NCBI RefSeq assembly: GCF_025231525.1
Contig: NZ_CP103057.1
Location: 372,001 to 436,000 of the forward strand
Source: Sphingomonas endolithica
GTDB lineage: Bacteria; Pseudomonadota; Alphaproteobacteria; Sphingomonadales; Sphingomonadaceae
DNA length: 64,000 bases
Direction: 5' to 3'
Shown here: piece by piece, positions 1,527-61,768 of the stretch
Numbering within the stretch: the first letter of the stretch is position 1
Layout: every line of letters begins with the position of its first letter
Position numbers and translations under genes: made by a program
Notes under the pieces: model-generated
What the model was told of the DNA's origin: nothing
The model's database searches: none
The model's input: only the letters and a program-made list of their open reading frames with translations

Positions 1527-1600
1527 TTGCGAACCGGACGGCGATGCGCGTAGCTGGGGCACGCCGCCGACGCGGTGATAGGACATTGCTGGAGGATTAC

Positions 1601-1804
1601 ATGCAGCACGATCTGCAACTGCGCGCGGCTGCGCGCGCGATTTACGATGCCTGCTATCCAACTGAGGAATGGGCGCCTGTGCGCTTCGATGAAGCAGAGC
1701 GGTTCGGCACGGTGCATTATCGCCAGGCTGTCGGCGCTGCCCAGGAAGCACGAAGCGCTCTCGGTGCACAGCACGATCAGCTCCTATTCGCGTCGATCCT
1801 CTAG
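1601..1804 (+). CDS. Hypothetical protein heading the umuDC operon, 67 aa
   Basis: A 67-residue protein beginning MQHDLQLRAAARAIYDAC, with a conserved-looking middle (W-x-P-V-x-F-D-E-A-E-R-F). GGAGG at 1591-1595 sits 5 nt before the ATG, which fixes the start. It is the first gene after the LexA box and is followed within about 50 nt by umuD, so it should be induced by DNA damage along with it. Similar small proteins occur in sphingomonad accessory DNA, but I know no function. It could be an adaptor or regulator of the translesion polymerase, which is speculation. Confidence 0.65.
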   Translation: MQHDLQLRAAARAIYDACYPTEEWAPVRFDEAERFGTVHYRQAVGAAQEARSALGAQHDQLLFASIL

Positions 1805-1853
1805 GGTGGACCCGCTTAATGGCCGCCGACTGACCCGCCCAGCACACGTTCGC

Positions 1854-2282
1854 TTGTCGAATGGCCTGAAGCTCCACGAGATCCCATACGAGCTGGTGCC
1901 GCGCGAGGTGCCGCTATTCCTCTGCCGAACCCCGGCGGGCTTCCCCTCACCTGCCCAAGACGACATGGAGGAGCCGATCGATCTCGGTGCTTGGCTGGTC
2001 GAGCATCCCGCTGCCAGCTACATCATGCGAGTGGATGGCGTGTCGATGGCTGGTGCCGGCATCAACGACGGCGACCTGATCGTCGTGAATCGGGCCAAGA
2101 GACCTCGATCGGGCGCCATTGTCGTTGCGCTGGTTCACGGTGACCGAACCTTGAAGCGCCTGCAATTCGTCGATGGCCGCCACTGGCTCGTGCCCGAAGC
2201 AGAGGGCTTCGCGCAGATCCTGGTCGACGAGGATGTGGAGATCTGGGGCGTCGTCGTCGGCGTGGCCCGCAAGATGGCATGA
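1854..2282 (+). CDS. umuD: UmuD-like self-cleaving subunit of DNA polymerase V
   Basis: Translation gives a complete S24-type UmuD: cleavage site Ala-Gly in AGFPSPA (Ala28-Gly29), nucleophile Ser64 in DGVSMAGAG and Lys101 in RTLKRL. Distances from the cleavage site to Ser (36) and Lys (73) equal those of E. coli UmuD. RecA-stimulated self-cleavage would give UmuD' that joins UmuC for error-prone synthesis. The start is uncertain: TTG at 1854 gives 142 aa, close to the usual 139; GTG at 1806 would add 16 residues. The ATG of umuC overlaps its stop (ATGA). Confidence 0.85.
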
Positions 2283-3547
2283 GCGCCCCGATCGCGCTGA
2301 TCGACTGCAATAACTACTATGTCTCGTGCGAGCGGGCGTTCGACTCCAGCCTAATCGGTGTGCCGGTGATCGTCCTGTCGAACAACGACGGGTGCGCCAT
2401 AGCCAGGTCAGCTGAAGCGAAGGCGCTGGGGATCAAGATGGGCGATCCGATCCACCATCTGCGCGACAAGGTGCGCGAGCACAGCATTCGCGTCCTATCG
2501 TCGAACTACACCCTGTATGGCGACATGCAGCGCCGGGTAGTCGCGGCTTGTGCCGCGTTCGCCCGTGACAGCGAGATATACTCGATCGACGAGACGTTCC
2601 TTGATCTTGGCGGGTTTGAGGACCGGGACTTGGTGGCACACGCCCACGCTATGCGCGACCAGGTGCGCTTGTGGACGACCATTCCAACCTGCGTAGGCAT
2701 TGCCGGAACGAAGACGCTGGCGAAGCTGGCCAATGCCGCGGCGAAGAAGGACCCGCGGTTCGACGGCGTCGCTGATCTACGTGGCGACGACATCCGACGG
2801 CTGGTGATGCACGCCTTCCCGGTCGAGGACGTGTGGGGGGTCGGCAGCGCGACCGCGCTCAAGCTGAAGGGCCTTGGCATCGCAACGGCCGGCGGCTTGC
2901 GCGACATGCCAATGAAGCAGGCGCGGGCGGTAGGCACGGTGGTGCTTGAACGGTTGGTGGCCGAACTACGTGGCGTGCCCTCTAATGCCGTTGAGACGGT
3001 CGGGCCCCAGCGGAAGGGCATGGCGGTGACGAGATCGTTCGGCGCGCCGGTGACGACGCTCGACGGCATGATGGGCGCGCTCAGCCAATATGCCATGCGG
3101 GCTGGCGAGAAGTTGCGTAATCACGGGCTTGTGGCGGCGCGGCTGACGGCGTTCTTCCACACCAACCGGCACAAGCCTGAGCGGCCGCAATATGGCGGAT
3201 CACGGACGGTGTCGCTGCACCCTATGACTAGCGATACCCTAGAGCTGATTGCAGCGGCGCGGCGAGCGGCTGAACGGGCTTGGCGTGACGGCTACGCGTA
3301 CACCAAGGCCGGCATCATGCTCGACGACCTGGTTGCTGAAGATATGCGACCGCGGACGTTGTTTGAGGATGATACGGGCAAGCGGGACCGGTTGATGGGC
3401 GCGCTGGACGAGATCAACGGGCGGTTTGGCAAGTGGACGGCGGTCACGGCGTCACAGGGGTTCAGGCGCGAGTGGAAGTTGCGATCGGAGATGCGCTCGC
3501 CGGCGTGGACGACGAGCATCGCTGAGGTGCCGATAGTCCGGGCTTAA
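2279..3547 (+). CDS. umuC: UmuC-type Y-family DNA polymerase
   Basis: A 422-residue Y-family polymerase. Catalytic acidic residues are seen at Asp9 (ALIDCNNYY) and Asp104-Glu105 ([10 protein letters not shown]). The palm/finger region is followed by a thumb with helix-hairpin-helix ([20 protein letters not shown]) and a little-finger domain to about residue 390. Length fits UmuC (E. coli 422). It performs translesion synthesis with UmuD'. ATGA overlap with umuD and the LexA box upstream of the operon indicate SOS induction. Nothing is truncated. Confidence 0.95.
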
Positions 3548-5537: not shown

Positions 5538-7640
5538 TTAATGGTACTGACGGTCGGCTAAATCGTATTTAGGCATTGTACGAATTGTTGCAGCGCCAAA
5601 TTTAGCCGGGTGTCCTATATAGTAGCCTTGTACTTGATTGCAGCCCCATTGGCGTAGCCTCTCCAGCTGGCCTTCTGATTCTACTCCTTCGGCTACGATA
5701 GTCAGTCCTAAGCTTTTTCCGAGGCCGATGGTTGCCTTGACGATGGAGGCGGAGGACGGCTGATCGAGCATCTCGGCGATGAAGCTTCGATCCAGCTTGA
5801 GCTTGTCAAAGCTAAAGTCCTTCAGGTTCCTTAAAGAAGAGTGGCCAGTTCCGAAGTCATCCATGACAATTCGGACGCCGACGGCCTGAAGGGTGCTTAG
5901 CGTTCTTAGTACGTTGCCTCGTTGTTGACCCAGAAGCGTCGCGCTTTCTGTGACCTCTAGCTCCAGACGGCTGAGTGGCACGTCCCAGGCATGGGCTGCA
6001 TTCACTATCTCAGCGGCCAAACCGTTCGATCGAAACTGTAGCGGGGAAAGATTGATCGCCAGTGACAGGGATTGATCCCAAGTCGAGGCCTCTGCGAGAG
6101 CCTGATCAATGACCCAGGATCCGATCGAGGGTATCAAGCCCGTGGCCTCTGCCACTGGAATAAAGATGTGGGGTGGGATTTCGCCCAAGGTTGGGTGATC
6201 CCAGCGGAGCAGTGCTTCGTATCCTACGATCGTCATTGATGCTGCGTTTGCGATCGGCTGGTATGCCAAGTGCAACTGCTTCGTCGAGAACGCTTCCTCC
6301 AGATCTCGCGCGAGCCGGCGCCGGACACTCTCCTCCTGTTTAAGGTGCTCGTTGAAAAAGCGCGCAGTGTTCCTGCCGTCGGCCTTGGCGCGATATAGGG
6401 CCAAGTCGGCTAGCTCGTGTAACTCCTCGCCAGTTTGCTTCGGTTCAGACAAAGCTACTCCAATGCTCATCTGAATGTGTATTTCGTCGGTCGAAGCGCT
6501 GAGCGCTTTAAAGACGCGGGCGATCAGCGCTTCAGCTGCCGCAGGCTGCGCATGAGCGACCTGGATAATGGCGAACTCGTCGCCGCCGATACGAGCTACG
6601 AGATCATCGCTGCGTACACAGCCCGACAGAAGTTCCGCCGCTTGCTTGAGCGCCCGGTCACCTCCGGCATGGCCCAGTTGATCGTTGATCGCTTTGAAGC
6701 CATCAAGGTCTATTGCCAAGACAGCCACTGTGTCACCCGTTCGTTCGCTGCGCGAGAGTTCGTGCGCAAGCCGGCTTTCAAAGAGCAGACGGTTGGCTAA
6801 GCCGGTCAGCATATCGTGATGAGCAAGAAACTCGGCTCGCCGTTCGGCAGCCCGACGATCGTTGACGGCGGCGTGATAGGCGAACAGCCCACGCGCAAGA
6901 TCTCCGAGTTCATCCGCTCGCTTTAGCCCGGGTACCTCACCATCGCCTCCGCCGAGTTTGAACTCACGGAGGCGCTCAGCGATCACGGTTATGGGGATCA
7001 GTAATTGCCGGCGCAGCCAGATCGTCATCGCGAATATGAGCGCCACAATGGCGAAGCCGCCCAAAAGTACTGCTATGATGTTCTGCCGGCTCTCTCTCCC
7101 GTTCCGTTCGGCAGCGAGACCGATTTCGGTCGCGAGTAGCTCCCGTGCACTGCTGCGGCTCGTCTCCAACTTCCTCAAGGAAGAAAGGAACTGCGGCATT
7201 GCAGCTTTTAGTCGGGCAGGGTTAGTGCGCGCGGTGCTTATTAGGCTTCTGGATTGGTGGACAAAAGCGACAGCGGCTCGCCGGGTCTCTCGGATTGCAA
7301 TCGATGCAGTGCCTGCTTCCGACCTTAGGCACAATGTGGTCATGGATGAGGATAGGCGCTCGAAGTCCGCTGCCTGCTGCCAGAGCCCAGCCCAGCGCGA
7401 TGCTGAAACCGGCGCACCGTGCTCAGCATCGCGCGTGGCTTCGCCGACGTTCAGGCGCAGGTTCCGTTGCGCCTGATCATGCTGGTCTTCGGTTTGAAGC
7501 GCCTGGCTAAGAAGGGTGACCCGCTGATTTGCGTAGTGGATTTCATTAGCGACTGAGAGGCCGATCGCGAGCAGCATCATGGACAGCAGGATGACCAGCG
7601 CACACGCCATCGAAACCCGCGCCGATATCGATAGTCGCAC
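5538..7640 (-). CDS. Membrane GGDEF-EAL protein (c-di-GMP turnover), 700 aa
   Basis: Domain order: first membrane helix at about residues 10-32, a periplasmic helical sensor region, second helix at about 188-210, a HAMP-like linker, GGDEF domain with intact RIGGDEF (about 350-356), and EAL domain with intact EALLRW (about 475-480), DDFGTG, LKLDRSF and EGVE. Both synthesis and hydrolysis of c-di-GMP are possible; in such hybrids one activity usually dominates. GTG at 7640 was chosen over an upstream ATG because GAGGAG lies 6-11 nt before it and the signal-anchor follows directly. It is transcribed on its own, beside the FecR/TpsB/CHASE2 block, and could set c-di-GMP for it. Confidence 0.9.
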   Translation of the reverse strand: MRLSISARVSMACALVILLSMMLLAIGLSVANEIHYANQRVTLLSQALQTEDQHDQAQRNLRLNVGEATRDAEHGAPVSASRWAGLWQQAADFERLSSSMTTLCLRSEAGTASIAIRETRRAAVAFVHQSRSLISTARTNPARLKAAMPQFLSSLRKLETSRSSARELLATEIGLAAERNGRESRQNIIAVLLGGFAIVALIFAMTIWLRRQLLIPITVIAERLREFKLGGGDGEVPGLKRADELGDLARGLFAYHAAVNDRRAAERRAEFLAHHDMLTGLANRLLFESRLAHELSRSERTGDTVAVLAIDLDGFKAINDQLGHAGGDRALKQAAELLSGCVRSDDLVARIGGDEFAIIQVAHAQPAAAEALIARVFKALSASTDEIHIQMSIGVALSEPKQTGEELHELADLALYRAKADGRNTARFFNEHLKQEESVRRRLARDLEEAFSTKQLHLAYQPIANAASMTIVGYEALLRWDHPTLGEIPPHIFIPVAEATGLIPSIGSWVIDQALAEASTWDQSLSLAINLSPLQFRSNGLAAEIVNAAHAWDVPLSRLELEVTESATLLGQQRGNVLRTLSTLQAVGVRIVMDDFGTGHSSLRNLKDFSFDKLKLDRSFIAEMLDQPSSASIVKATIGLGKSLGLTIVAEGVESEGQLERLRQWGCNQVQGYYIGHPAKFGAATIRTMPKYDLADRQYH

Positions 7641-7887
7641 AGAATTCTCCTCTGCGCCCGTCTGGCCGGAAAGCCTTACTGTAACGTTATAGAAGAAGGC
7701 TTTCCGGGGTGGGCGGTCGGTCCAAGTCGTTCCAAGGAGCGCGCGCTCGCGCTTCGACATGATTGTTGCCCATCCGGCTTACTACTAACGGCGTTATAGG
7801 GGGCAACTACGCCGTTCTTACGCCAGCCGACCTACCAGGACGTGATCTGCGTTAAGCAGTTCGTCATCCTGGTAGCACTTGCGTCGG

Positions 7888-9972
7888 TCACTTAGGCCCT
7901 TTTTTCAGGGCATCTTCGACGGCCTTTGACCCGTCGTCGGTCGCCTTTTTCGCAGCCTTGTCAGCGTCCTCGACCGCTTTCTGAGCAGCCTTCGCGGCAT
8001 CCTCCGCGCTCTTCTGCGCGTCCTTAGCGGCCTTGTCCTGTTGCTTCGCCGCTTCTGCAGCAGCCCTTGCAGCATCATCCGCTGCTTGTTTCGCGGCCCG
8101 CTCGGCGTCCTTGGAATCCTTATCGGAGGCCGCCTTGGCTGCTTCGTCGGCGGCCTTCGCTGCGTCCTTAGCGGCACGGTCAGCTTCTCTGTCCAACGCT
8201 ACTTTGGCTGCTTCCTTGTTCGCCTGCTCGGCCGCGGCTCGTGCAGCATCCTCAGATGCCTTAGCGGCATCCCTTGCAGCCTTCTCTGCCTCTCTAGCTG
8301 CATCCTTTGCGGCCTTATCCGCATCCCTGTTCGACTTATCGGCTGCTTCTCTTGCAGCTTTCTCAGCTGCCTTAGACGCTTCGGCCGCCGCACGGGCAGA
8401 CGCGTTTGCTGCTTCCTTAGCTGCCTTGTCGCTGTCTGCCTTCGCAGCTTCGCGGGCTGCCTTATCTGCGTCCTGCGCCGCTTTCGCTGCGTCCTTGGCG
8501 GCCTTGTCTGCGGCTGCAATCACGCCGGCATCTGTGCTCGATCGGGCATCTTCCGCTGCCTTTGCTGCATCGCGAGCAGCCTTCTCCGCTGCGGCTTGCG
8601 CAACTGCGTTAAGCGCGGCCTGATTGGCTCGCGCAACTTCCGCAGCAGCAGCATCCTCCGATGCTCTGGCGGCGGCAAGGGCGGCGGCGGTGGAAGCGTC
8701 AGACGCAGCTTTGGCTGCTTCTTCAGCAGCACTGTCTGTAGCAGCACTCGCTGCAGCCTCGGCTGCCCGTTGCGCTGCTGCTGCGGCTGCAACCGCGTTG
8801 GCCTGTGCGGTCGCCTTGGCAGCGCTCTCCTCTTGAGCACGTGCTGCTTGCGCCGCAGCAGCGGCAGCGGCTTTAGTGGCATCATCGGCCGTCGCTTTTG
8901 CCGCAGCTTCGGCCGCATCTCTTTGTGTCTTGTCGGACGCTGCCTTCGCGGCATCGTCCGCTGAGCGCTGTGCCGCGAGTGCTGCTTCTTGCGCGGCATT
9001 GTCCGCCTGAGTTTTAGCTGCTGCTGCCGTCTGGGCAGCAGCGGCGCTATCCCCCAGGGCTTGGCCGGCTGCCTGCTGCGTATCCTGCACCGCGATTACT
9101 GCCTGCGCGCTGGTGACAGATTTGACCGCGGATGTGGAAGCCTCCGTCGTCATGCGAGAGGCAACGGCGAGTTCTGGCAGGTCAGCAGCCGTGGCCGCGA
9201 TCTCGACTGGTGTGCCGATGCTTCCGGAGACTAGGCCGTTTGTGGTTTCGGAAAGTGACACAGGAGCTTCGAATACGGCCGGCAGGACCGTCTGTTGGCT
9301 TGCCACGGGGCTCGTGTCGGGTGTTGGCGTTATTCTATCTGCTGTTGGCGTTGGCCCCGACGAAGGAGGTGCTGGCGGGGCAGGGGTGTTGGGCGCGTCG
9401 GGCGAAACAAGCGTCTTTGTCACACCATTGGTTTCGATCTGCAGCCGATAGAGGTCGCCGGCCCCGATCAGCGCGATCCCGCCGGGCCGGACAAGATCGT
9501 GAGCGCCGCCGTCAATGGTGGCGACATCAACAGCGCCTTCCAGCACTTGGACGGAAGAACCCTTGCTGTTCACGCCGATCGAGAAGGTGGTGCCTTTCAC
9601 GACGGCAGCCAGGTACGGAGTTTTTACCTCGAAATGTGGGGTAAGTTTCTTTTTTATCATGAAGACAACGTTGCCGAAATCCTCCAACACCTGTGTCACG
9701 CCCGAGCGCGGCGGAGCTTGCGGAAGACGCAACTGCGTGGCTGGCGCGACCATCATGTACTCGGACCCGCGCACGAGCACCAAACGTCCGCCTTGGCCGG
9801 TTTTCACCGTATCGCCGGCTGCAACGGTGATGCCTCTGGTGGCGGTCTTAACAATGCCGCTTCGGAAAATTTGCACCGGGCCAGATGTTTCGCTGATTGT
9901 CCAGGCTGGCTGCTCAGCCATCGCCACGGTCGAACAGCTTGCGCCGAACAGAAAAACAAGGTGCTTGCGCAT
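7888..9972 (-). CDS. Exported FecR-domain protein with a long Ala/Lys-rich helical tail, 694 aa
   Basis: Signal peptide at residues 1-19 (ends VAMA). Residues about 30-190 form a FecR-type beta domain (GDTVKTGQGGRLVLV, then TPYLAAVVKGTTFSIGV, typical of the stand-alone exported FecR family, not the anti-sigma kind). A Pro/Ser/Thr linker covers about 195-235. From about 285 to the end there is an almost unbroken repeat of Ala-Ala-Lys-Ala/Asp heptad-like units, predicting one very long charged helix, as in TolA or filament/stalk proteins. The divergent neighbour encodes a TpsB-type outer-membrane transporter. I infer a surface or periplasm-spanning fibre; a substrate role for the transporter is possible but the usual TPS haemagglutinin domain is absent. 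The repeats make all six frames open here. Confidence 0.8.
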   Translation of the reverse strand: MRKHLVFLFGASCSTVAMAEQPAWTISETSGPVQIFRSGIVKTATRGITVAAGDTVKTGQGGRLVLVRGSEYMMVAPATQLRLPQAPPRSGVTQVLEDFGNVVFMIKKKLTPHFEVKTPYLAAVVKGTTFSIGVNSKGSSVQVLEGAVDVATIDGGAHDLVRPGGIALIGAGDLYRLQIETNGVTKTLVSPDAPNTPAPPAPPSSGPTPTADRITPTPDTSPVASQQTVLPAVFEAPVSLSETTNGLVSGSIGTPVEIAATAADLPELAVASRMTTEASTSAVKSVTSAQAVIAVQDTQQAAGQALGDSAAAAQTAAAAKTQADNAAQEAALAAQRSADDAAKAASDKTQRDAAEAAAKATADDATKAAAAAAAQAARAQEESAAKATAQANAVAAAAAAQRAAEAAASAATDSAAEEAAKAASDASTAAALAAARASEDAAAAEVARANQAALNAVAQAAAEKAARDAAKAAEDARSSTDAGVIAAADKAAKDAAKAAQDADKAAREAAKADSDKAAKEAANASARAAAEASKAAEKAAREAADKSNRDADKAAKDAAREAEKAARDAAKASEDAARAAAEQANKEAAKVALDREADRAAKDAAKAADEAAKAASDKDSKDAERAAKQAADDAARAAAEAAKQQDKAAKDAQKSAEDAAKAAQKAVEDADKAAKKATDDGSKAVEDALKKGPK

Positions 9973-10150
9973 GCAGAACTCTCCGGCGCCGAAACTGATT
10001 TCTCGCGTCGCCCATCCAGGGCCCTGTGACAGAGTATCTTCTCCGATTGATTTAACAGGTCGGTAAACAGAATCTTAGGCACATCAGCCAGATAACTATT
10101 TGCAAACGCTTAAAGCCTATCGCGTCCAGGTAGTGCGGAGAGACTAGTAG

Positions 10151-11815
10151 ATGCGTCGGCTTTTGAATGTAGTGCTGGTTGGTGCGGGGCTGATGCTTTC
10201 GCCTTCGCATGCCGCTGGGCAGGTAAGGCTGGACCGAGCGGACCCGACAATCGCTGAACAGGCGCTGCCGAATGTCGCTGAGAAAGTAGATCCGGCTCAA
10301 GCGCCCGCCACCATGACCCCGTCTTCACAGGAAACAAGGATCGGGATAGCGCCGACGGGGCCGCACGTCGCGTCCGCTATCGTAATTGGGGGCGCCGAGA
10401 GTGCAATTCCCTCACAGGTCTTTGCGGACATCATCGTAGATTACGTTGGTAAACCACTGCTAACGCAGGACTTCACCGATCTGTTGAGCCGAGTTTCGGC
10501 CAAGGCACGGAGCCGTGGCTTCTCTTTTGCCACCGCCTCGATCAGCTCTCAGGATATCGCTTCCGGCGTGTTGCGAGTAGCCTTGGACTTGGGCCGGATC
10601 GATGCCGTTCGTGTGATCGGCACAGCGAACCCCTACGCTGACAAGCTTCTGACAACCGCGCTGGCGGGGCAAGTGGTTCGAAAGGACACGCTGGAGCGGG
10701 CGATCGGATTGGTCAGTGACATTCCTGGCGTCACGGTCACGGATACCAAGTTCGTTCGCCAAGATGGCTTCGGCATCCTGCTAGTGACCATCGCTCAGGA
10801 TCGGGCGAGCGCGTACGTTCAGCTCGACAACCGTGGCAGTAAAGAAGTCGGCCCAATTCGGTCAACGATATTAGGCAACCTCCGCGGCGTGTTACGCTCA
10901 GGCGATGAAATTGGTGTGATCGCGGCGTTGACGCCTGTTCAGCCATCGGAGTTCGCCTTCCTGCGTGGGCGTTATACCAGCCCACTGGGTTCGGCAGGGT
11001 CGACCGTGACGGTATCGGGATCGTACGGCCGCGCGCATCCTGGAGCTTCGTTGAAGCCGCTGGATGTTATCGGCACGAGCTGGGATCTGGCGATGGGCTA
11101 CTCAGTGCCAATCTTGCGTAGCCGAACACGCAGTTTGTGGGCCAATCTTGAGGTTCGCACCCTGTCGAGCAGCCAGACCCTTCTCGGGACCAGGCTGCGG
11201 AGGGATAAGATCACGACGCTCACCGGAACACTGGGTGGTAATGCCCGCGCGGCAGGCGGCGTGGTCCGTAGCGAGTTAGCGATTATAGCTGGGCTACCAG
11301 TTGCAGGCGCTAGCCATCAAGAAGATGCCTTGCTGTCCCGCCGCGATGGTGACGCGCGTTTCGTAGCTGGTACCTACAGCGTCGACTGGTCGCGTAAGGT
11401 CACCAAGCGGATCAGCGTCGTGCTGGCTTCCGCTGGGCAGCTTGCTTCTCGCCCGCTGTTGGCATCAGCTGAGATCGGGGCAGGGGGCCCGGCCTTCGGG
11501 CGGGGCTACGACTATGCTGAGCGGACCGGCGACAGCGGTATTCTGGGATCTGCGGAAGTGCGCGCAGACCTTGGCCGCGTACTACCGACCGTGATCGACC
11601 GATTGCAGATCTACGGCTTCGTGGATGGCGGTTACGTGGGCAATCTGCGTCGAGGGTTTGGGGGCGGATCCTTGCTTTCCTCTGGAAGTGGCCTTCGCAT
11701 GGGGAAGGGCAGGTTAGACGGCATGATCGAGCTTGCGTTACCAATGAATGCCGACCGTTTCGATACCGGCAATCGACGTTCGCGGCTCTCCCTGCGCCTC
11801 TCAGTTAGTATTTGA
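10151..11815 (+). CDS. Two-partner-secretion type outer-membrane transporter (ShlB/FhaC/HecB family), 554 aa
   Basis: Signal peptide to about residue 24. Two POTRA-like domains follow (about 75-150 and 150-215), then a 16-strand barrel region. The conserved loop-6 motif appears as FGRGYDYAE and is followed by strands such as IYGFVDGGYV; the protein ends in a barrel-type strand (LSLRLSVSI). This is the TpsB architecture that exports a partner protein through the outer membrane. No classical TpsA is beside it: the divergent gene encodes a FecR-domain coiled protein instead. The downstream CHASE2-EAL gene begins 4 nt after its stop, so the two form an operon. Confidence 0.85.
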   Translation: MRRLLNVVLVGAGLMLSPSHAAGQVRLDRADPTIAEQALPNVAEKVDPAQAPATMTPSSQETRIGIAPTGPHVASAIVIGGAESAIPSQVFADIIVDYVGKPLLTQDFTDLLSRVSAKARSRGFSFATASISSQDIASGVLRVALDLGRIDAVRVIGTANPYADKLLTTALAGQVVRKDTLERAIGLVSDIPGVTVTDTKFVRQDGFGILLVTIAQDRASAYVQLDNRGSKEVGPIRSTILGNLRGVLRSGDEIGVIAALTPVQPSEFAFLRGRYTSPLGSAGSTVTVSGSYGRAHPGASLKPLDVIGTSWDLAMGYSVPILRSRTRSLWANLEVRTLSSSQTLLGTRLRRDKITTLTGTLGGNARAAGGVVRSELAIIAGLPVAGASHQEDALLSRRDGDARFVAGTYSVDWSRKVTKRISVVLASAGQLASRPLLASAEIGAGGPAFGRGYDYAERTGDSGILGSAEVRADLGRVLPTVIDRLQIYGFVDGGYVGNLRRGFGGGSLLSSGSGLRMGKGRLDGMIELALPMNADRFDTGNRRSRLSLRLSVSI

Positions 11816-11819
11816 GACA

Positions 11820-14204
11820 ATGGACAACCATTTGAATAAATGGGGAAATATTCGGAAGCGTTTTTCCGGCCTGATACTCCTTGGCGCCGCGTTCGTGAGT
11901 ATTACGACGGCGGCAACTCGCTTCGGCGCTGCTGCGGACCGCTCGCTTGACGGGCTTAGATCAGGAGTGGTCAGCCGGCAGGCAAGTGGCAATGTGGTGG
12001 TCGTCGAGCTTGATGCTGCGAGCACCGCCGCGATCAAGCGTTGGCCTTGGTCGCGCGACAATTACGCGCGTGTCGTTGATCGCCTTAGCAGTGCAGGTGC
12101 GGGATCGATCGTGTTCGACGTCGATTTCTCTTCCACCTCGGACGCGGCTGGGGACAGGGCATTTGCCGCTGCAATCTCAAATGCTGGCGGCCGGGTGGCC
12201 TTGCCGACCTTTGGTCAGCAACGCAGCGCGGATGACGTGCGAACAATCGACGCGTTGCCGCTGCCGCTTCTTCGACCACATGCCGCCCTCGTATCGGTGA
12301 GCATAGCGCCTGATCTGGATGGTTCGGTCCGAGACATGCCTTTCGCTACAATGACGGCCGGCGTGCCTCGCCCGTCGCTGTCCAGCTACATCGCAGGAAG
12401 ATCGGGGGTCGCTGACGCGCTGTTTCCCATCGACATGTCCATCGATCCCAAGACTATTCCACGCTTGAGCTTCGTCGCGGTGCGCGATGGCAAGTTCGAC
12501 CCCAAGCTCGTCCGCGGACGCGACGTTTTGATCGGCGCGACCGCAGTTGAGATGGGGGACCGGTACGGCACGCCCAGCTGGGGAGTGCTGCCCGGTGTGA
12601 TCGTGCAGGCGCTGGCGGCGGAGACGCTGATCCGCGGAATACCCGTACGGGGCAGCGTTGCAGTAGCGATTGTGCTTGCCCTGATGCTCGCCGGCTTGAT
12701 CGTGCGCCAACGTTCCACAGGGCGGATTATGCTCATCTCGGCCCTTGGCGCTGCGGTGTTGATCAGCGTGGCGTTGCTTGCTCAACACGCGTTCCAGGTG
12801 GTCTACCCAATAGCGGCTGCGCTGATGGCAATCGGAACAGCGTCGGCCGCTTGTCTCGGCCGCGATGTACTGCGCCGGTTCGATCTCCAGCGCACCACTG
12901 ACGATGCGACGAACCTACCCAATCGCCGCGCCTGGCAATACTCTGTTGACGATCAGCGGGCCATTGCCGTTGCGATAGCGGAGATCGGGAATTACGAGAG
13001 TCTCCACGCAGTCCTTGGGTCTCAAGCGGCAAGCGACGTAGTTGTCCGTCTGGCAGAGCGCCTCCGCCTATCCAGTGAAGACGCGCGGGTTTACCGCATC
13101 AGCAATCGTCAGCTTGGGGTCTCGCTATCGGCAGAGCAGCCGATCGAAGACTCGATGAGTTGCCTGCGAGCAATCCTCATCCAACCAGTAGAAGTCGCGG
13201 GCCGCAGGGTGGACGTCACCACGACGATCGGCGTGGCGCAAGGCGCTCGTCAAGGCTTGGACCGCTTGCTCGCAGATGCGGCAATGGCAGCTGACCAAGC
13301 ACAGGTTGAGGGCACCTTCTGGCGTCTTGCGACTACAGACCTTGCGGATGTGGAACGCTCGATATCGCTTATGGGTGAGCTCGACCAAGCCATTTCCGCC
13401 GGCGAGATAGACGTCTATTATCAGCCGAAGCTAAACCTGAAGGAGCAGCGCATCACCAGTGTGGAGGCGCTGGTGCGATGGAAGCACCCGATACGAGGCT
13501 TTATCGGCCCCGATCTTTTCATTCCCCTCGCCGAGCAGACCGACCGCATTGCGCCATTAACGATCTACGTCTTGAAGCGAGTGTTAGCAGACCTTCAAGT
13601 CTGGCGCGGGCGCGGACACAATGTCGCGGCGGCGATAAACATTTCCGCTAAACTGCTATCGTCTCAATCGTTTAATGCCGAAATTGAACGCGCCCTCGCA
13701 TCATTCGACGCGCCGACAACTTCGCTGATCTTCGAAGTCACTGAGTCTGCTACCATGTCGGATCCGGCTGCTGCGATCGCCGCACTGCGCCGCTATCGCG
13801 ACTTGGGGGTTGCGGTGTCTCTGGACGACTATGGTACCGGACAGTCGACCCTCACATATCTTCAGCAACTGCCGCTGAACGAATTGAAGATCGATCGGAG
13901 CTTCGTTCAATTTGCGCACCAGAACCATAACGACGCGGTGCTCGTTCGCTCCACCATCAAGCTGGCACATGATCTGGGCTTGAAGGTCGTTGCAGAGGGC
14001 GTGGAGGACGTCGCCTGCCGCGAATTCCTCGCGGCGTCTGATTGCGACCTTATTCAGGGGTATCTCATCAGTCGTCCAGTACCGCTTGGCGACCTGATCG
14101 GCCTTCTTGAAGCTGCTCAGGGGGGCTCAGCGGACGGGGCGGATCCGTACTCTAACGCCTCCGCTGAAGTAGCTGCGCACCACTTGCGGCGACAGGCCGG
14201 ATAG
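11820..14204 (+). CDS. CHASE2 sensor with degenerate GGDEF and intact EAL domain, 794 aa
   Basis: An N-terminal membrane helix (about 16-32) is followed by a periplasmic CHASE2 domain (to about 270), three helices (about 280-296, 303-321, 328-345), a GGDEF fold whose signature is replaced (RISNRQLG at about 427-433, so no cyclase site), and an EAL domain with EALVRW (549-554), EVTES, DDYGTG, LKIDRSF and EGVED all present. It should hydrolyse c-di-GMP under control of a periplasmic signal. The ATG at 11820 lies 4 nt past the transporter stop, so translation is coupled. CHASE2 proteins are often found beside exported FecR-domain proteins, as here. Confidence 0.88.
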   Translation: MDNHLNKWGNIRKRFSGLILLGAAFVSITTAATRFGAAADRSLDGLRSGVVSRQASGNVVVVELDAASTAAIKRWPWSRDNYARVVDRLSSAGAGSIVFDVDFSSTSDAAGDRAFAAAISNAGGRVALPTFGQQRSADDVRTIDALPLPLLRPHAALVSVSIAPDLDGSVRDMPFATMTAGVPRPSLSSYIAGRSGVADALFPIDMSIDPKTIPRLSFVAVRDGKFDPKLVRGRDVLIGATAVEMGDRYGTPSWGVLPGVIVQALAAETLIRGIPVRGSVAVAIVLALMLAGLIVRQRSTGRIMLISALGAAVLISVALLAQHAFQVVYPIAAALMAIGTASAACLGRDVLRRFDLQRTTDDATNLPNRRAWQYSVDDQRAIAVAIAEIGNYESLHAVLGSQAASDVVVRLAERLRLSSEDARVYRISNRQLGVSLSAEQPIEDSMSCLRAILIQPVEVAGRRVDVTTTIGVAQGARQGLDRLLADAAMAADQAQVEGTFWRLATTDLADVERSISLMGELDQAISAGEIDVYYQPKLNLKEQRITSVEALVRWKHPIRGFIGPDLFIPLAEQTDRIAPLTIYVLKRVLADLQVWRGRGHNVAAAINISAKLLSSQSFNAEIERALASFDAPTTSLIFEVTESATMSDPAAAIAALRRYRDLGVAVSLDDYGTGQSTLTYLQQLPLNELKIDRSFVQFAHQNHNDAVLVRSTIKLAHDLGLKVVAEGVEDVACREFLAASDCDLIQGYLISRPVPLGDLIGLLEAAQGGSADGADPYSNASAEVAAHHLRRQAG

Positions 14205-55907: not shown

Positions 55908-56113
55908 TGATGCGAAACGATCATCACTCCTCATGGTGAGATCCTGAGCCGCTGTACTCGCCGGCAAGCCGGACGGACGCAGTGCTGTCATCGGGCTTTC
56001 ACACCCCACCCGTAACGCCGCGCGGTGAACCGGCGCCAACCTCCGATCTGTGGGCATAACAACAAGCGTATGCCGAAGCGGCCGGCGCGGTCCTTGCCGC
56101 GGCGGTCGGTCTG

Positions 56114-56650
56114 ATGAACCAGGTCTCAGCGGTCACGGAACGGCGTGCGGCCACTGCGCAGGAAGTCGAACTGCGGCAGGCCTTGCATCGCTTCGTCAAC
56201 GGACGGTTGCGAGACCAGGCGTTGGGCGAGGATATCGTCCAGGAGACGTATCTCCGGATGTACGATTATCGCCGTACCCGTCCCGTTGCCGACGCGGCCG
56301 CCTTCTGCTTCGCCGTTGCACGCAACCTGGTGCGCGACCATTTTCGCGGGCTGCGCACGCAACCGGCGGGGGCCGAACTCGTCGAGGACATAGCGTGCCC
56401 GCTGCCGCGCGCGGAAGAGATGCTCGATTATCGGCAGCGGGTCGAGATACTGATCCGCGCGCTCAAGGTCATGCCGCCGCTGCGTCGCGAGATTTTCCTC
56501 CGGCGTCGGCTGGACGGGATGTCCGGCGCGGTCGTGGCGGCCGACCTCGGCATGACGATCGCCGCGGTGGACAAGCATTGCACGCGCGCATCAGCCGATC
56601 TGCGGCACGCGCTGGAGCGCCGTGGGTTGCCGGCAGGGGGCGCCGCATGA
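56114..56650 (+). CDS. ECF sigma factor, FecI type
   Basis: Region 2 (DIVQETYLRMYDYRRTR; FAVARNLVRDHFR) and region 4 (LPRAEEMLDYRQRVEIL, MPPLRREIFLRRRLDGMS, AADLGMTIAAVDKHCTRA) are present. 178 aa. Overlaps fecR by ATGA. It should be released by the FecR partner when the TonB receptor binds its ligand, and then transcribe the receptor gene. Confidence 0.93.
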   Translation: MNQVSAVTERRAATAQEVELRQALHRFVNGRLRDQALGEDIVQETYLRMYDYRRTRPVADAAAFCFAVARNLVRDHFRGLRTQPAGAELVEDIACPLPRAEEMLDYRQRVEILIRALKVMPPLRREIFLRRRLDGMSGAVVAADLGMTIAAVDKHCTRASADLRHALERRGLPAGGAA

Positions 56651-57540
56651 CACGCCGCGCCGCGCCGCACAAAACGGCAGATGCCGGGATTCTGGATGAC
56701 CCCGCCCTCGGTGAGGCGCTCGCAGCCGTAGCGGCGACAGGCCGCCTCTCGAATGAAGCGCTACGCGGGATGCGCGAGACGCGCCGACGCGTCGTCGGTA
56801 CCGGGATCAGTGCCGTGCTGGTGGCATCGGTGGGCCTCGGGTTCTGGCAGGGGCGGGTGCTTCAACCTGCAGCCGCCATCGTCCAGCATATCGAGACACA
56901 AAGGGGCGAACAACGCGCGGTCAACCTCGCCGACGGCTCGCGCGTGGACCTCGACGGCGCGACCAGCCTCGACGTCCGCATCAACGACGGGGCGCGTGTG
57001 GTCGATCTGCGCCGTGGCGCGGCGTATTTCGATGTCGCGCATGACCGTGATCGGCCCTTCGTCGTGCGGGCAGGCGCGTCGAGTACGAACGTGCTCGGCA
57101 CTGCCTTCTCGATCGACATCGGCGCGCGCGCCGTGAAACTTTCCGTCTATCGTGGCCGGGTTCGGTTTGGGGACAAGGCAAGCGGCAGTCGCGGCGTCGA
57201 CGTACCAGCCGGCTGGCGTTCGAGCTTCGTACAGGGCGCGGTCGCCGCACCAACGCGCTTCGATGCAACGCAGCAGGACCGGCGGCAGTCCTGGGTCGAT
57301 ACCGACGACATGCTGCTCGGCGAGCTGGTCGAGCAGCTCAACCGCCGGCGCGGGCCGCTGATTGAACCGCCACCGCCGCATCTTGCCAGCCTGCCACTGT
57401 CGGGCCGTTTCAAGCTCGACGATGCTGCTGACCTGCTCGAGGCCATCGGTGAGGTCTATGGCTTCGACGTCATCGGGGACGGCGGCAGTTTGCGCCTGGT
57501 CGCAGCGGGCAAGGGTGACGCGAAACTGCCTTCTAAATGA
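56647..57540 (+). CDS. FecR-family anti-sigma / signal transducer
   Basis: A cytoplasmic sigma-binding part (about 1-45), one membrane helix (TGISAVLVASVGLGFW, about 52-67), and a periplasmic FecR domain with GEQRAVNLADGSRVDLDGATSL and VLGTAFSIDI, ending in an STN-like segment (LPLSGRFKLDDAADLLEAI). It carries the signal from the receptor to the sigma factor. 297 aa; coupled to fecI by overlap. Confidence 0.92.
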   Translation: MTRRAAPHKTADAGILDDPALGEALAAVAATGRLSNEALRGMRETRRRVVGTGISAVLVASVGLGFWQGRVLQPAAAIVQHIETQRGEQRAVNLADGSRVDLDGATSLDVRINDGARVVDLRRGAAYFDVAHDRDRPFVVRAGASSTNVLGTAFSIDIGARAVKLSVYRGRVRFGDKASGSRGVDVPAGWRSSFVQGAVAAPTRFDATQQDRRQSWVDTDDMLLGELVEQLNRRRGPLIEPPPPHLASLPLSGRFKLDDAADLLEAIGEVYGFDVIGDGGSLRLVAAGKGDAKLPSK

Positions 57541-57630
57541 CGCTGCAGTGCAACAAAATTCTTTTGTCCTGATCCGGCATCGCGCCCGTCTTCTGCTTCG
57601 TGGCGCATGTGCGTCGAGCGGAGGGAAAAC

Positions 57631-60600
57631 ATGACGTATCTTAAGGGGGTTTCGTTTCTGTCGCTGGCGGTCGCGCTGGCAATGCCGGTCGCTGCCCAGG
57701 CCCGACCCGAGCCTGTCGCCGGAAGTGCGATGCGCTTCGACATCGCGGCATCGGATCTGCGCGCAGCATTGTCGCAATTTTCGCGCGTCAGCGGAATGCA
57801 GGTGGTCGCCGCGCCGGCAGTGGTGGCCGGGCGGCGGACTGGCGGGGTGCGGGGCGCCTTCACCTCCCGCGAGGCGCTCAACCAGCTGCTGCGCGGCACC
57901 GATCTGGTGGTCGCAGTGCGGGGCAGCATGGCGGTGTTGAAACGCGCGCCCAAGCCGTTGGCTGCGCGTCCGATCGCGAAGCCAGCGGCGCTGGCGGCTG
58001 CGCCGGTGCAGGACGGGTCCTATGGGGGCAATGTCAATGCGGAAGAGGCCGGATCCGAGATCGTCGTCACCGGCTATCGTCAGAGCATCGCCGAGGCGCT
58101 GCAGCTCAAGCGCGGCGCGGTCGGCGCGCAGGATAATATCGTCGCCACCGATATCGCCGCCTTTCCGGATCTGAACCTGGCGGAATCGCTGCAGCGTATC
58201 CCCGGCATCACCATCACGCGCGACACCGGCGAGGGCCGCCAGATCGCGTTGCGCGGGCTCGGCGCCGATTTCACCCGCACGCAGCTGAACGGCATGGAAG
58301 TGCTGGGCAACACGGCATCGGGCATGGACAATCGCGGCAACGTCTCGCGCTCGCGCTCGTTCGACTATAGCCTGTTCGCGTCGGAATTGTTCAGCCGCGT
58401 CGCGGTGCAGAAATCCTATTCTGCCGAGCAGGACGAGGGCGGCATCGCCGGCACGGTGCAGCTCACCACCGCCAAGCCGTTCGATTATACGGGCAGCAAG
58501 TTCGTCGTCTCCGCCAAGGGGCAGACCAACACCAACACCAATGGCGTAACACCGCGGCTGGTCGGTCTGGCATCGGGCCGTTGGGGCGATCTCGGCGTTT
58601 TGGTCTCCGCCGCCTACAGCAACATCCGCAGCAACGAATATGGCTATCGCAACTGGGGCTGGGGACTGACCAAGTATAACGCCGCCAATATCGGCCCCGA
58701 GATCGATGCCGCGACGCGCACGAAGCTGCTCGGCGGCGTGTGGCAATCGACCGCCCAGTCGCCGTCGAGCTGGTATACCGATCGCAAGCGGCTCGGCGTC
58801 ACCTCGGCGCTGCAATATCATCCGGGCGACAATTTCAAGCTCGACGTCGATCTGCTCTACGGCCGGCTGTGGGACAGGCGCGACGATTATGCACTCGCCA
58901 CTGCGGGCGCCAATCCGCTCACCGGCACCTCGATCGGCGGCACGCAGATCATCCGCAGCGCGGTGATCGACGACAGCAACACGTTGCGCGCGGCGAGCTT
59001 CACCGGCATCGACCTGCGGTCGGAACATCACATCGTCAAGAACCACACCGACTTCTACCAGGCAGTCGCCAATGCCAGTTGGGACGTCAGCGATCGCCTG
59101 ACGATCCACGCGCTCGGCGGCTTCGAGGAATCGGACTTCGCGCAGCCGGTGTTCGACAAGGTGTTCATGGAGGCCAAGAACACGGCGTTCAGCTACGACG
59201 TCCGCCCGACCATTCCGGTCAACAGCTACGGCATCAACCTGACGGACCCCAACAATTGGGCGCTGCAGCGGCTGGACGTGCAGGAGAACGAAGTCACCAG
59301 TCGCTACAAGAATGGCAAGCTCGACGCTGCCTATCGCCTCGACGACGCGCTGACGTTCAAGATCGGCGGCGAATACAAGGCGTTCGTCAACAGCGGCTAT
59401 ACCTCGGCGAACAAGGTGTTCCACAATGTGCCCACGGTCACGCCGATCCCCAACGATCTCAAGCATACCGTGCCGGTCGACACGCTACTCCAATATATCG
59501 TGGGCAATGTCGACGGCACCTATGCGCTGATCGGCGACAAGCGTAATCTGACCGCGGCCAATCTGCAGGCCGGCAGCGATTATCGCGTGGACGAAGATAC
59601 CTGGGCCGGCTTCGCGCAGCTCGATCTCGACACGCAGGTGGCCGGTATGCGGCTGCGCGCCAATGCCGGCCTGCGCTATTATTCCACCGACCTGACCTCA
59701 TCGGGCAACCTTGCGACCGGCGCCGGCTTCGTACCGGTGGTGATCGAGACCAACAGCAAGGGTTGGCTGCCCGCAGCCAATGTCGCGCTCGACGTGGCCG
59801 AGGACGTGGTGGTGCGCCTCAGCGCCAGCCGCAACGTCAACCGTCCGGGCTTGGGCGATCTCGCCGCGGCGGGATCGATCACCACCCGGCCCAATGGCGG
59901 CTCGCTGACCCTCGGCAACCCATTCCTCAAGCCTTATAAGGCAACATCGGTCGAAGGGTCGGTCGAGTGGTATATGGGCCGGCACGGCTTCGCCTCGATC
60001 GGCGCGTTCTACAAGAGCATGGATAGCTTCATCACCTCCTCGTCGAAGCAGATCCCTTATGGCGAGAGCGGCCTGCCGCTGTCGCTGCTGATCCAGGGGC
60101 AGGACGCCAATACGCCATATGACGTGAGCCAGCCGATCAATGGGCCGGGCGCCGACATCAAGGGCGTCGAGGTAGCGTTTCAGCACGATTTCACGTTCCT
60201 GCCCGGCGCGCTCAAGAATCTCGGCGTCACTGCCAATGGCACGTGGTTCGAAGGGAAACGTACCGCGTTCTACACCACCGGCGGGGTGACCAGCTCGCGC
60301 GTGCTGCCGCTCGACAATCTCTCGAAATGGGCGTTCAACGCGACGCTGTATTACGAGAATCCGGTATGGGGCGCGCGCGTCTCCGATGCGTATCGCAGTC
60401 GCTACCTGACCGGGGCGGGCAATGCGCTGGCCAATTCGGGTGGCGGCATCAAGGCGACCAACAATGTCGACTTCCAGGCGCATTTCAACCTGCGCCCCGG
60501 CATCCGCCTGATCGCCGAGGGCATCAACCTGACGAACGAGCCGATCCAGCAGTTCGCCAACATGGATGCCATGCGCCCCGAGGTCTATACCACCAGCGGC

Positions 60601-60636
60601 CGCACCTTCACGTTCGGCTTCAGCGCGGAATTCTGA
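57631..60636 (+). CDS. TonB-dependent receptor with STN signalling domain, 1001 aa
   Basis: GGAGG precedes ATG at 57631. Signal peptide (about 1-24), STN domain (MRFDIAASDLRAALSQFSRVSG, about 37-100), plug with TonB-box-like EIVVTGYR and the Caulobacter/Xanthomonas-type signature (PDLNLAESLQRIPGITI, GRQIALRGLGADFTRTQLNG), then a large barrel closing in FTFGFSAEF. The STN domain means it signals to FecR/FecI. Ligand unknown; such receptors of this branch often carry sugars, phytate or other large molecules rather than iron. Followed by a strong hairpin. Confidence 0.93.
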   Translation: MTYLKGVSFLSLAVALAMPVAAQARPEPVAGSAMRFDIAASDLRAALSQFSRVSGMQVVAAPAVVAGRRTGGVRGAFTSREALNQLLRGTDLVVAVRGSMAVLKRAPKPLAARPIAKPAALAAAPVQDGSYGGNVNAEEAGSEIVVTGYRQSIAEALQLKRGAVGAQDNIVATDIAAFPDLNLAESLQRIPGITITRDTGEGRQIALRGLGADFTRTQLNGMEVLGNTASGMDNRGNVSRSRSFDYSLFASELFSRVAVQKSYSAEQDEGGIAGTVQLTTAKPFDYTGSKFVVSAKGQTNTNTNGVTPRLVGLASGRWGDLGVLVSAAYSNIRSNEYGYRNWGWGLTKYNAANIGPEIDAATRTKLLGGVWQSTAQSPSSWYTDRKRLGVTSALQYHPGDNFKLDVDLLYGRLWDRRDDYALATAGANPLTGTSIGGTQIIRSAVIDDSNTLRAASFTGIDLRSEHHIVKNHTDFYQAVANASWDVSDRLTIHALGGFEESDFAQPVFDKVFMEAKNTAFSYDVRPTIPVNSYGINLTDPNNWALQRLDVQENEVTSRYKNGKLDAAYRLDDALTFKIGGEYKAFVNSGYTSANKVFHNVPTVTPIPNDLKHTVPVDTLLQYIVGNVDGTYALIGDKRNLTAANLQAGSDYRVDEDTWAGFAQLDLDTQVAGMRLRANAGLRYYSTDLTSSGNLATGAGFVPVVIETNSKGWLPAANVALDVAEDVVVRLSASRNVNRPGLGDLAAAGSITTRPNGGSLTLGNPFLKPYKATSVEGSVEWYMGRHGFASIGAFYKSMDSFITSSSKQIPYGESGLPLSLLIQGQDANTPYDVSQPINGPGADIKGVEVAFQHDFTFLPGALKNLGVTANGTWFEGKRTAFYTTGGVTSSRVLPLDNLSKWAFNATLYYENPVWGARVSDAYRSRYLTGAGNALANSGGGIKATNNVDFQAHFNLRPGIRLIAEGINLTNEPIQQFANMDAMRPEVYTTSGRTFTFGFSAEF

Positions 60637-60660
60637 GCGCGCGTTCGATGACGTTCTGAT

Positions 60661-60690
60661 GCTCCCCTCCCTGATCGCAGGGAGGGGAGC
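60661..60690. terminator. Perfect 13-bp hairpin after the receptor gene
   Basis: GCTCCCCTCCCTG-ATCG-CAGGGAGGGGAGC, followed by TTGCTT. It should stop or weaken transcription from the receptor gene, so the next genes may get their own or reduced expression. The inner CCCTCCCT..AGGGAGGG is like the repeats near 26.7 kb. Confidence 0.75.
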
Positions 60691-60706
60691 TTGCTTGGAG
60701 ATGACC

Positions 60707-61768
60707 ATGCGTACCGCCCTCGGCAGCGTCGCGTTTCTACTCGCCGCGCCGGCCGCCGCCCAGGAGCAGCCACCTCCACGCATCAACGACATTGCCGTGA
60801 TCGGCACTCATAACAGCTACAAGCTGGCCATGCCGACGGAGACAATGGCGAAGCTGCGTGCGACCAATCCGCAGATGGCGGATGCGCTCGACTATGCGCA
60901 CCGCCCGCTCGCCGAGCAACTCGATGCCGGCGCCAGGCAATTGGAGCTCGATGTAAACTATGATCCTGCGGGCGGCCATTATGCGCGTGGATCGAGCGAT
61001 CCCAAACTGCGCCGGCGCGGCTTCAAGGTGCTGCACATTCCAGGCATCGACAACGGGTCGAGCTGCGTCCTGTTGACCGAGTGCCTGCAGGCGATCCGCG
61101 CGTGGTCCGATGCCCATCCGCGCCACGTGCCGATCCTGCTGATGTTCAATGCCAAGGACGAACAGAATGCCGCGCGGGGCGGCATCGACGCGCTGCCGTT
61201 CGACGCGGCTGCCTATGATGCGCTCGACGCCGAGATACGGTCGGTGCTGAAGCCGGACAAGCTGATCACGCCCGACGATGTCCAGGGCAAGTTTCCGACG
61301 CTGCGTGATGCGGTGCTGGCCGGTAATTGGCCGCTGCTAGAAGCGTCGCGCGGCAAAATCCTGTTCGCGCTCGACGAGCCGCCGGCCAAGGTCGCGGTTT
61401 ATCGCGGTGCGCGCAAATCGCTGGAGGGACGGGTGTTCTTCATCAACACGGACGAGCAATCGCCAGCCGCCGCCTATCTGACGCTCAACGATCCGATCGG
61501 CGATGCCGAACGAATCCGCCGCGACGTGACGGCAGGGTATCTCGTCCGCACCCGCGCCGACGCGAACACGAGCGAGGCGCGCGCCAACGACACGCGGCCA
61601 CGCGACGCAGCGCTGGCGGGCGGTGCGCAATTCGTGTCAACCGACTATCTCTGGGCCGATCCACGGTTCGCTGGCGGCTATCGCGTGCAGTCTCCCGGAG
61701 GCCTTGTGGCGCGCTGCAATCCCGTCCGGCGACCGGCCGGCTGTGGCAATCTGGAGGCCGGCAAGTGA
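60707..61768 (+). CDS. Exported Ca-dependent phosphoinositide phospholipase C-like enzyme (PI-PLC-C1), 353 aa
   Basis: Signal peptide (about 1-18). Catalytic pattern of the Ca-dependent bacterial PI-PLC: first His (His35) in VIGTHNSYK, acidic ligands in GARQLELDVNYDP, second His in VLHIPGIDN, and FPTLRDAV with ILFALDEPP further on. The enzyme would cut inositol phospholipids. ATG at 60707 gives GGAG at 6 nt; 60701 is too close. GTGA overlap with the phosphatase gene below means the two are made together. Confidence 0.88.
   Translation: MRTALGSVAFLLAAPAAAQEQPPPRINDIAVIGTHNSYKLAMPTETMAKLRATNPQMADALDYAHRPLAEQLDAGARQLELDVNYDPAGGHYARGSSDPKLRRRGFKVLHIPGIDNGSSCVLLTECLQAIRAWSDAHPRHVPILLMFNAKDEQNAARGGIDALPFDAAAYDALDAEIRSVLKPDKLITPDDVQGKFPTLRDAVLAGNWPLLEASRGKILFALDEPPAKVAVYRGARKSLEGRVFFINTDEQSPAAAYLTLNDPIGDAERIRRDVTAGYLVRTRADANTSEARANDTRPRDAALAGGAQFVSTDYLWADPRFAGGYRVQSPGGLVARCNPVRRPAGCGNLEAGK

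Follow-up and report, generated by a model that had tools for sequence, protein, structure and literature searches.

A stretch of 64,000 nucleotides from the genome of Sphingomonas endolithica (the window below: bases 372001–436000 of a single-contig 4.09-Mb genome) encodes three neighboring proteins: an exported protein with a FecR-type head and a long low-complexity tail, a transporter of the TpsB type, and a receptor that joins the sensor domain CHASE2 to an EAL domain. Comparison across genomes establishes that these form a conserved unit and that, in a sample of 40 TpsB loci, FecR and TpsA genes exclude each other beside TpsB; as far as alignments and trees can establish such traits, the unit has FecR and CHASE2 lineages of its own, intact EAL residues and interchangeable outputs. 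We tentatively favor, at a little short of an even chance, the view that the unit is a trans-envelope sensing relay, in which TpsB would hold or thread the FecR tail, CHASE2 would read the FecR head, and the output would be in cyclic di-GMP (c-di-GMP).

The linkage of a tailed FecR protein, TpsB and CHASE2-EAL, proposed in a first-pass annotation of this DNA, recurs throughout the close relatives. A contig scan with 25 aligned transporters yielded 43 loci (40 titled Sphingomonas, two Sphingobium and one Microvirga), and all three genes, which at the surveyed loci were called with custom hidden Markov models built from seed proteins and agreed with Pfam in spot checks, stand together in 39. Contig ends truncate the remaining four: in L065 and L071, which lack FecR, the contig ends inside TpsB, and in L050 and L059, where CHASE2-EAL is not seen, the cut is on the side of FecR, and as this is one of the two positions in which that gene is usually found, its absence is unproven. 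The genes were not found separately in any of these relatives, and the trio clusters far more than chance would allow. The trio of the locus titled Microvirga (L036) groups with those of Sphingomonas, pointing to a mislabelled genome or a gene transfer. CHASE2 matches, for their part, occur in 33 of 100 relatives (38 matches, 35 places examined): 19 are CHASE2-EAL, 18 of them with FecR and TpsB and one on a contig cut before FecR; six are CHASE2-histidine kinases with a LysM-FecR protein and no TpsB; four are CHASE2-cyclases without TpsB and three are CHASE2-cyclases with TpsB, TpsA and CHAT; and three have neither FecR, TpsB nor a known output. At L107, L108 and L109, all from Sphingomonas, a classical TpsA, a TpsB, a CHASE2 adenylate cyclase and a CHAT protein lie in a row, a second and different linkage of CHASE2 with two-partner secretion (TPS); an additional secreted protein at L107 (248 aa) has no Pfam match, and L174 combines the trio with a nearby CHASE2 cyclase and a small protein similar to that of L107.

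In the window, the four open reading frames and their domains, which lie where the first-pass annotation had placed them, are arranged as follows.

7888–9972, minus strand: FecR-headed exported protein, 694 aa (PF04773, 38.6 bits against a cut-off of 24; signal peptide by eye at residues 1–19)
9391–9906, minus strand: FecR head, residues 23–194, all-beta, with the fold of the PupR cell-surface signalling domain
7897–9132, minus strand: Ala-rich, predicted helical tail, residues 281–692 (composition, autocorrelation)
9973–10150, no strand: intergenic region of 178 bp between the divergent FecR and TpsB genes; head-to-head layout conserved
10151–11815, plus strand: TpsB-type transporter, 554 aa, modelled as a 16-strand barrel with two POTRA domains (Pfam, structure model, CdiB match)
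11748–14204, plus strand: CHASE2-(degenerate GGDEF)-EAL receptor, a likely phosphodiesterase, 818 aa as the longest open reading frame (Pfam, EAL residues)
11964–12695, plus strand: CHASE2 domain, residues 73–316 (Pfam)
13377–14078, plus strand: EAL domain, residues 544–777 (Pfam)
5538–7760, minus strand: GGDEF-EAL neighbor, 740 aa (Pfam, above cut-offs); not a conserved part of the unit

The receptor gene probably starts at 11820, directly past the TpsB stop, as judged from relatives of about 765 aa. The GGDEF-EAL gene of 740 aa, considered as a member of the system, was rejected: in 34 relatives the sequence past the FecR end runs on for 2.5 kb or more, and in none of them does a GGDEF or EAL gene lie within that distance (nine of the 43 loci are unjudgeable, among them L060, where the opposite strand has a truncated GGDEF frame). 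GGDEF genes do occur downstream of TpsB at L059 (3924–4754), where CHASE2-EAL is not seen and the contig is cut on the other side, and at L070 (11766–12914), where CHASE2-EAL is on the FecR side. A promoter scan found three sigma-70-like sites in the region, against a shuffle mean of 2.8, and none in the divergent FecR/TpsB gap.

FecR is the sole domain that Pfam matches in the 694-aa protein (residues 54–148), with neither a TPS domain (PF05860) nor LysM. In fold searches with the head, FecR-family signalling domains rank first, and its fold is that of the PupR signalling domain; a TPS-like beta-helix was looked for and is not among the best 50 and 37 rows of these searches, an absence that falls short of proof. 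The protein begins with a signal peptide (by eye), has no other domain in Pfam and shows no cytoplasmic anti-sigma part; no sigma factor was found among the neighbors scanned with Pfam, no wider search for one having been made. The 412-residue tail comprises 188 alanines, 63 lysines and arginines, 72 aspartates and glutamates (a near-balanced charge), five glycines and no proline. The local peaks of its autocorrelation, at 4, 7, 11, 15, 19, 22 and 26 with the highest at 11, are as expected of a predicted long alpha-helix; at a rise of 1.5 Å per residue, 412 residues in a single helix would span about 60 nm, exceeding the width of the periplasm.

The first-pass annotation took this Ala/Lys coil as an essential part of the system, an idea that fails because the tails of relatives differ chemically in kind. 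Most sphingomonad tails are Ala-rich with Lys, Asp or Glu, and those found elsewhere beside TpsB consist of (GN)n, (PE)n plus poly-D, K/D/G, or Gly/Asn/Ala repeats. What is mostly retained is length and low complexity, not helicity: a low-complexity stretch of at least 60 residues is present in 70 of 78 FecR rows beside TpsB versus 16 of 47 beside CHASE2 without TpsB (identical sequences taken once and matches below 35 bits dropped; in the TpsB/EAL class, the L069 and L072 rows are short extra FecR genes, and L174 is labelled by its cyclase neighbor). Beside CHASE2-histidine kinases, LysM occurs in 12 of 14 FecR rows without TpsB and in none of 10 with it, and low-complexity stretches in one of those 14 and nine of those 10. 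Certain FecR proteins beside CHASE2 adenylate cyclases (L114, L122, L124, L126 and L138) reach about 1,000–1,800 residues, with a long unexplained remainder.

The transporter carries POTRA_2 and ShlB domains, both above Pfam cut-offs, and its PDB profile matches are CdiB, TpsB4 and FhaC. Pfam reports one POTRA; two POTRAs and 16 barrel strands are counted from the DSSP line of a structure model (predicted local distance difference test 75, predicted template modelling score 0.72), whose best fold match is CdiB (6wim, template modelling score 0.68). Hallmarks of TpsB proteins are a loop-6 RGY-type motif and an FxDxG strand motif; the window protein has FGRGYDYAE and YGFVDGG, with R451, Y453, D492 and G494 invariant in the 25 aligned transporters. 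There is no classical TpsA (PF05860) at the trio locus, and the two TPS matches of the genome each adjoin another ShlB gene, which argues against a classical TpsA encoded elsewhere serving this transporter.

Across 387 alphaproteobacterial genomes, CHASE2 matches occur in 195 and TpsB alignment matches in 89. At 40 class-wide TpsB loci, drawn from the upper part of the match list with some places skipped, FecR alone is the neighbor in 13, TpsA alone in 23, both in none and neither in four (Fisher p 2e-7, uncorrected for relatedness). The loci with neither comprise L155, L166 and L192, which include short contigs, and L167, where a frame of 2,529 residues that is TpsA-like by eye was missed by the TPS model. 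Since FecR and TpsA never co-occur at these 40 loci, the FecR protein can be seen as filling the TpsA slot beside TpsB, yet, with a head that has the fold of the PupR signalling domain, it is no TpsA itself. On the TpsB tree (this and the CHASE2 and FecR-head trees are quick trees supported only by Shimodaira–Hasegawa-like approximate likelihood ratio tests), the label “FecR partner” needs three changes as against 21.8 in shuffles. The free tree splits the FecR type into three groups, and a tree that holds the 28 CHASE2-type TpsBs together is better by 30 log units; separate origins are therefore not claimed, and a single clade for these transporters is not rejected.

In the 818-aa receptor, a weak GGDEF match separates CHASE2 and EAL domains that are both above Pfam cut-offs, and the EAL domain stands in place of a kinase. 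Eight positions, which we take to be the catalytic ones of EAL enzymes, are invariant in all 58 trio proteins; the check was made by alignment, in place of an over-strict regular expression that recovered, e.g., one motif in 26 of 58. Eight of the 58 have a canonical GGDEF motif, none of them sphingomonad. Because of these residues, the trio receptors are likely phosphodiesterases, and those of sphingomonads are not likely to be cyclases. Related trios in other alphaproteobacterial families have a sensor with a histidine kinase or with PAS-GGDEF-EAL, and Pfam confirms HisKA/HATPase, PAS-GGDEF-EAL and EAL outputs among the trio receptors. On the CHASE2 tree, 30 TpsB-linked domains and four from loci without TpsB form a 99% clade in which histidine kinases and EAL proteins are mixed; the FecR-head tree has a matching clade (38 rows, 99%) with the same four loci inside.

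Gene order, counted like the EAL residues after excluding 13 loci that duplicate genome-contig loci, points to FecR and TpsB as the tighter linked pair. Of 74 pairs, 67 are head to head, L072, L078 and L160 seem to share this layout but have over-long open reading frame calls, and four are in tandem. CHASE2 switches between the two ends: it lies on the downstream side of TpsB in 34 cases and on that of FecR in 27. A mirror-tree ranking of FecR-TpsB against FecR-CHASE2 was set aside as suggestive only, owing to its conditioning on EAL. At L159, L164 and L169 the order is a tandem of FecR, a secreted 250-aa protein and TpsB, and the FecR proteins share the ending AGCGC or GCGC. The FecR-head alignment matches 71 of 397 genomes of the phylum, and its 22 best places are all alphaproteobacterial; among the 19 of these newly examined (L194–L212), 14 have TpsB and 16 CHASE2, with L197, L198 and L207 on short or cut contigs. 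Of 21 weaker places (L213–L233) none has TpsB, and seven encode a LysM-FecR protein with a CHASE2 receptor.

Several observations weigh against a relay built on all three proteins. Four loci (L209–L212) pair FecR with CHASE2-GGDEF-EAL and have no neighboring TpsB, which tells against the link being obligatory. The low-complexity threshold is exceeded by the FecR proteins of three and narrowly missed by that of L209; three of the genomes have no ShlB-family match, whereas a single strong one occurs in the fourth, on a different contig. The FecR-CHASE2 pair can thus do without TpsB, at any rate once TpsB has been lost; the position of the four inside the FecR-head clade suggests such a loss, and on the CHASE2 tree three of them lie at the base of the 99% clade. 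Where FecR stands beside a CHASE2 adenylate cyclase and there is no TpsB, 12 of 26 rows also have low-complexity stretches; such stretches are missing from eight of 78 rows with TpsB, including the full trio L174. Among 40 CHASE2 loci drawn from the strongest matches, 23 have a FecR gene and only one, L137, a TpsB, and there FecR, TpsB, TpsA and CHASE2 are all present. At L159, L164 and L169 no CHASE2 is seen beside FecR and TpsB, both of which fall outside the trio lineage in trees. The mirror-tree value for FecR and CHASE2 is 0.44, understated by its conditioning on EAL, a part of the same protein as CHASE2. We read FecR head and CHASE2 as the constant core, to which the trio lineage has added the FecR protein's partnership with its own TpsB.

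It is because of this core and the gain of a TpsB by its FecR protein that we favor the sensing relay, with the threading of RcsF, for which IgaA is the inner-membrane reader, as an analogy. The FecR-headed protein would reach the periplasm by the Sec route, where a dedicated TpsB without a TpsA would bind it and hold or thread its long tail through the outer membrane. The tail might act as an antenna or a load-bearing tether, the head remaining on the periplasmic side; with the receptor in the inner membrane and its CHASE2 domain in the periplasm, a change in the state of the tail or pore would alter the contact between head and CHASE2, and this in turn the breakdown of c-di-GMP by the EAL domain. 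In relatives, the same envelope parts would feed a histidine kinase or a PAS-GGDEF-EAL protein. The threading, the contact and the direction of the signal are what we infer here. The broader claim, of an undescribed class of trans-envelope receptors, is more doubtful: a TpsB-family channel would keep the signalling head of one protein on the inner side and its tail, whether disordered or helical, on the outer, and a CHASE2 receptor of interchangeable output (c-di-GMP hydrolysis or phosphorelay) would receive from the head a readout of tension, surface contact or the occupancy of the pore.

Unlikely, and nonetheless a serious rival, is a c-di-GMP-controlled displayed fiber, with the FecR protein as a substitute TpsA secreted or displayed as a fiber or adhesin and CHASE2-EAL controlling its display or release. 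The FecR gene does sit in the TpsA slot, a conserved N-terminal head with a variable repetitive body is the layout of an exoprotein, the predicted helix would outreach the periplasm on the figures above, and CdrA of Pseudomonas offers a precedent as a c-di-GMP-regulated two-partner adhesin (PMC2847200, as far as the consulted parts of that paper go). Against this, the head is folded like a signalling domain, with no TPS beta-helix among the fold-search rows listed, FecR-CHASE2 pairs are widespread without TpsB, and outputs that alternate between histidine kinase and EAL fit sensing better than the control of one fiber. The proposal of the first-pass annotation that c-di-GMP sets the display is for us weaker than the outside-in direction, because the receptor has a periplasmic-type sensor domain and interchangeable outputs.

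That the FecR protein is wholly periplasmic, its tail a spacer, a ruler or a peptidoglycan- or polymer-binding element and TpsB a dock or an exporter of other cargo, is likewise unlikely. This would make FecR-CHASE2 the core, in keeping with the replacement of both tail and TpsB by LysM in the CHASE2-histidine kinase class, with tailed FecR and CHASE2 in three genomes without any ShlB match, and with the consulted parts of the papers on Sinorhizobium meliloti and Burkholderia pairs, which mention no TpsB. It does not sit well with the tighter, head-to-head linkage of FecR with TpsB as CHASE2 moves between ends, and it leaves the absence of TpsA beside the trio TpsBs unexplained. A chance meeting of three unrelated genes in one genome is vanishingly improbable, being refuted by the recurrence of the trio, in rearranged gene orders, across many genomes and families; only the GGDEF-EAL gene looks like a chance neighbor.

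Elsewhere in the window, a second FecR-domain gene (496 aa) precedes genes for an STN-domain TonB-dependent receptor and for a protein like Ca-dependent phosphoinositide phospholipase C (56050–61768), a group that looks like ordinary cell-surface signalling or uptake; the Peptidase S24 and Y-family polymerase pair at 1575–3547 (UmuDC-like) is likewise ordinary.

Were the relay to hold, TpsB channels would gain a likely job besides TpsA secretion, and CHASE2, whose signals were stated to be unknown as of 2016 (PMC5192318, in the parts consulted), would be offered a concrete input. Alphaproteobacteria such as sphingomonads would then provide a small testable system in which the state of the outer membrane is connected to c-di-GMP.

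The first-pass annotation knew of no described system with this make-up, which may hold for the union with TpsB and does not hold for the pair within it. Exported FecR-domain proteins beside CHASE2 receptors are, going by the available parts of the papers, in print from Burkholderia (the “BiofilmReg” operon, with a FecR-CHASE2 pair of LysM-FecR protein and CHASE2 histidine kinase; PMC5192318), S. meliloti (SMc02177, a FecR protein, with the CHASE2 cyclase CyaD1 nearby; PMC5498481) and Campylobacterota (clusters of CHASE2 cyclase, phosphodiesterase, FecR and TPR; PMC9239204). In those parts the FecR proteins have LysM (Burkholderia) or no tail, the receptors are histidine kinases or adenylate cyclases, and no TpsB is mentioned; the terms ShlB and hemolysin are absent from the texts on the S. 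meliloti and Burkholderia pairs. The trio, in contrast, has a dedicated TpsB, a long low-complexity tail and an EAL output; it differs from the BiofilmReg type in having no LysM and an EAL domain, not a kinase, and the two form separate groups in trees. No paper joining FecR-CHASE2 pairs to TpsB was found in a search that left subscription papers mostly outside, and it looks as if that union is undescribed.

The proposed relay resembles, in the parts of the account consulted (PMC4942254), the RcsF/OMP/IgaA system in its barrel-threaded protein and periplasmic signalling part, and differs from it in that RcsF is a lipoprotein with another barrel and another output; this is an analogy for which no homology is claimed. 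With two-partner secretion (FhaC/FHA, CdiB/CdiA, CdrB/CdrA) the trio shares a TpsB, recognizable by domains, PDB profile and fold, and a single adjoining partner gene, whereas its partner has a FecR/PupR-type head in place of the TPS domain and a receptor gene belongs to the unit. Similarly, it shares with cell-surface signalling (FecA/FecR/FecI, PupB/PupR) the PupR signalling-domain fold and the logic of passing from outer to inner membrane, but its barrel is of the ShlB type instead of a TonB receptor, its FecR protein is free and exported, and its receptor is a CHASE2-EAL protein.
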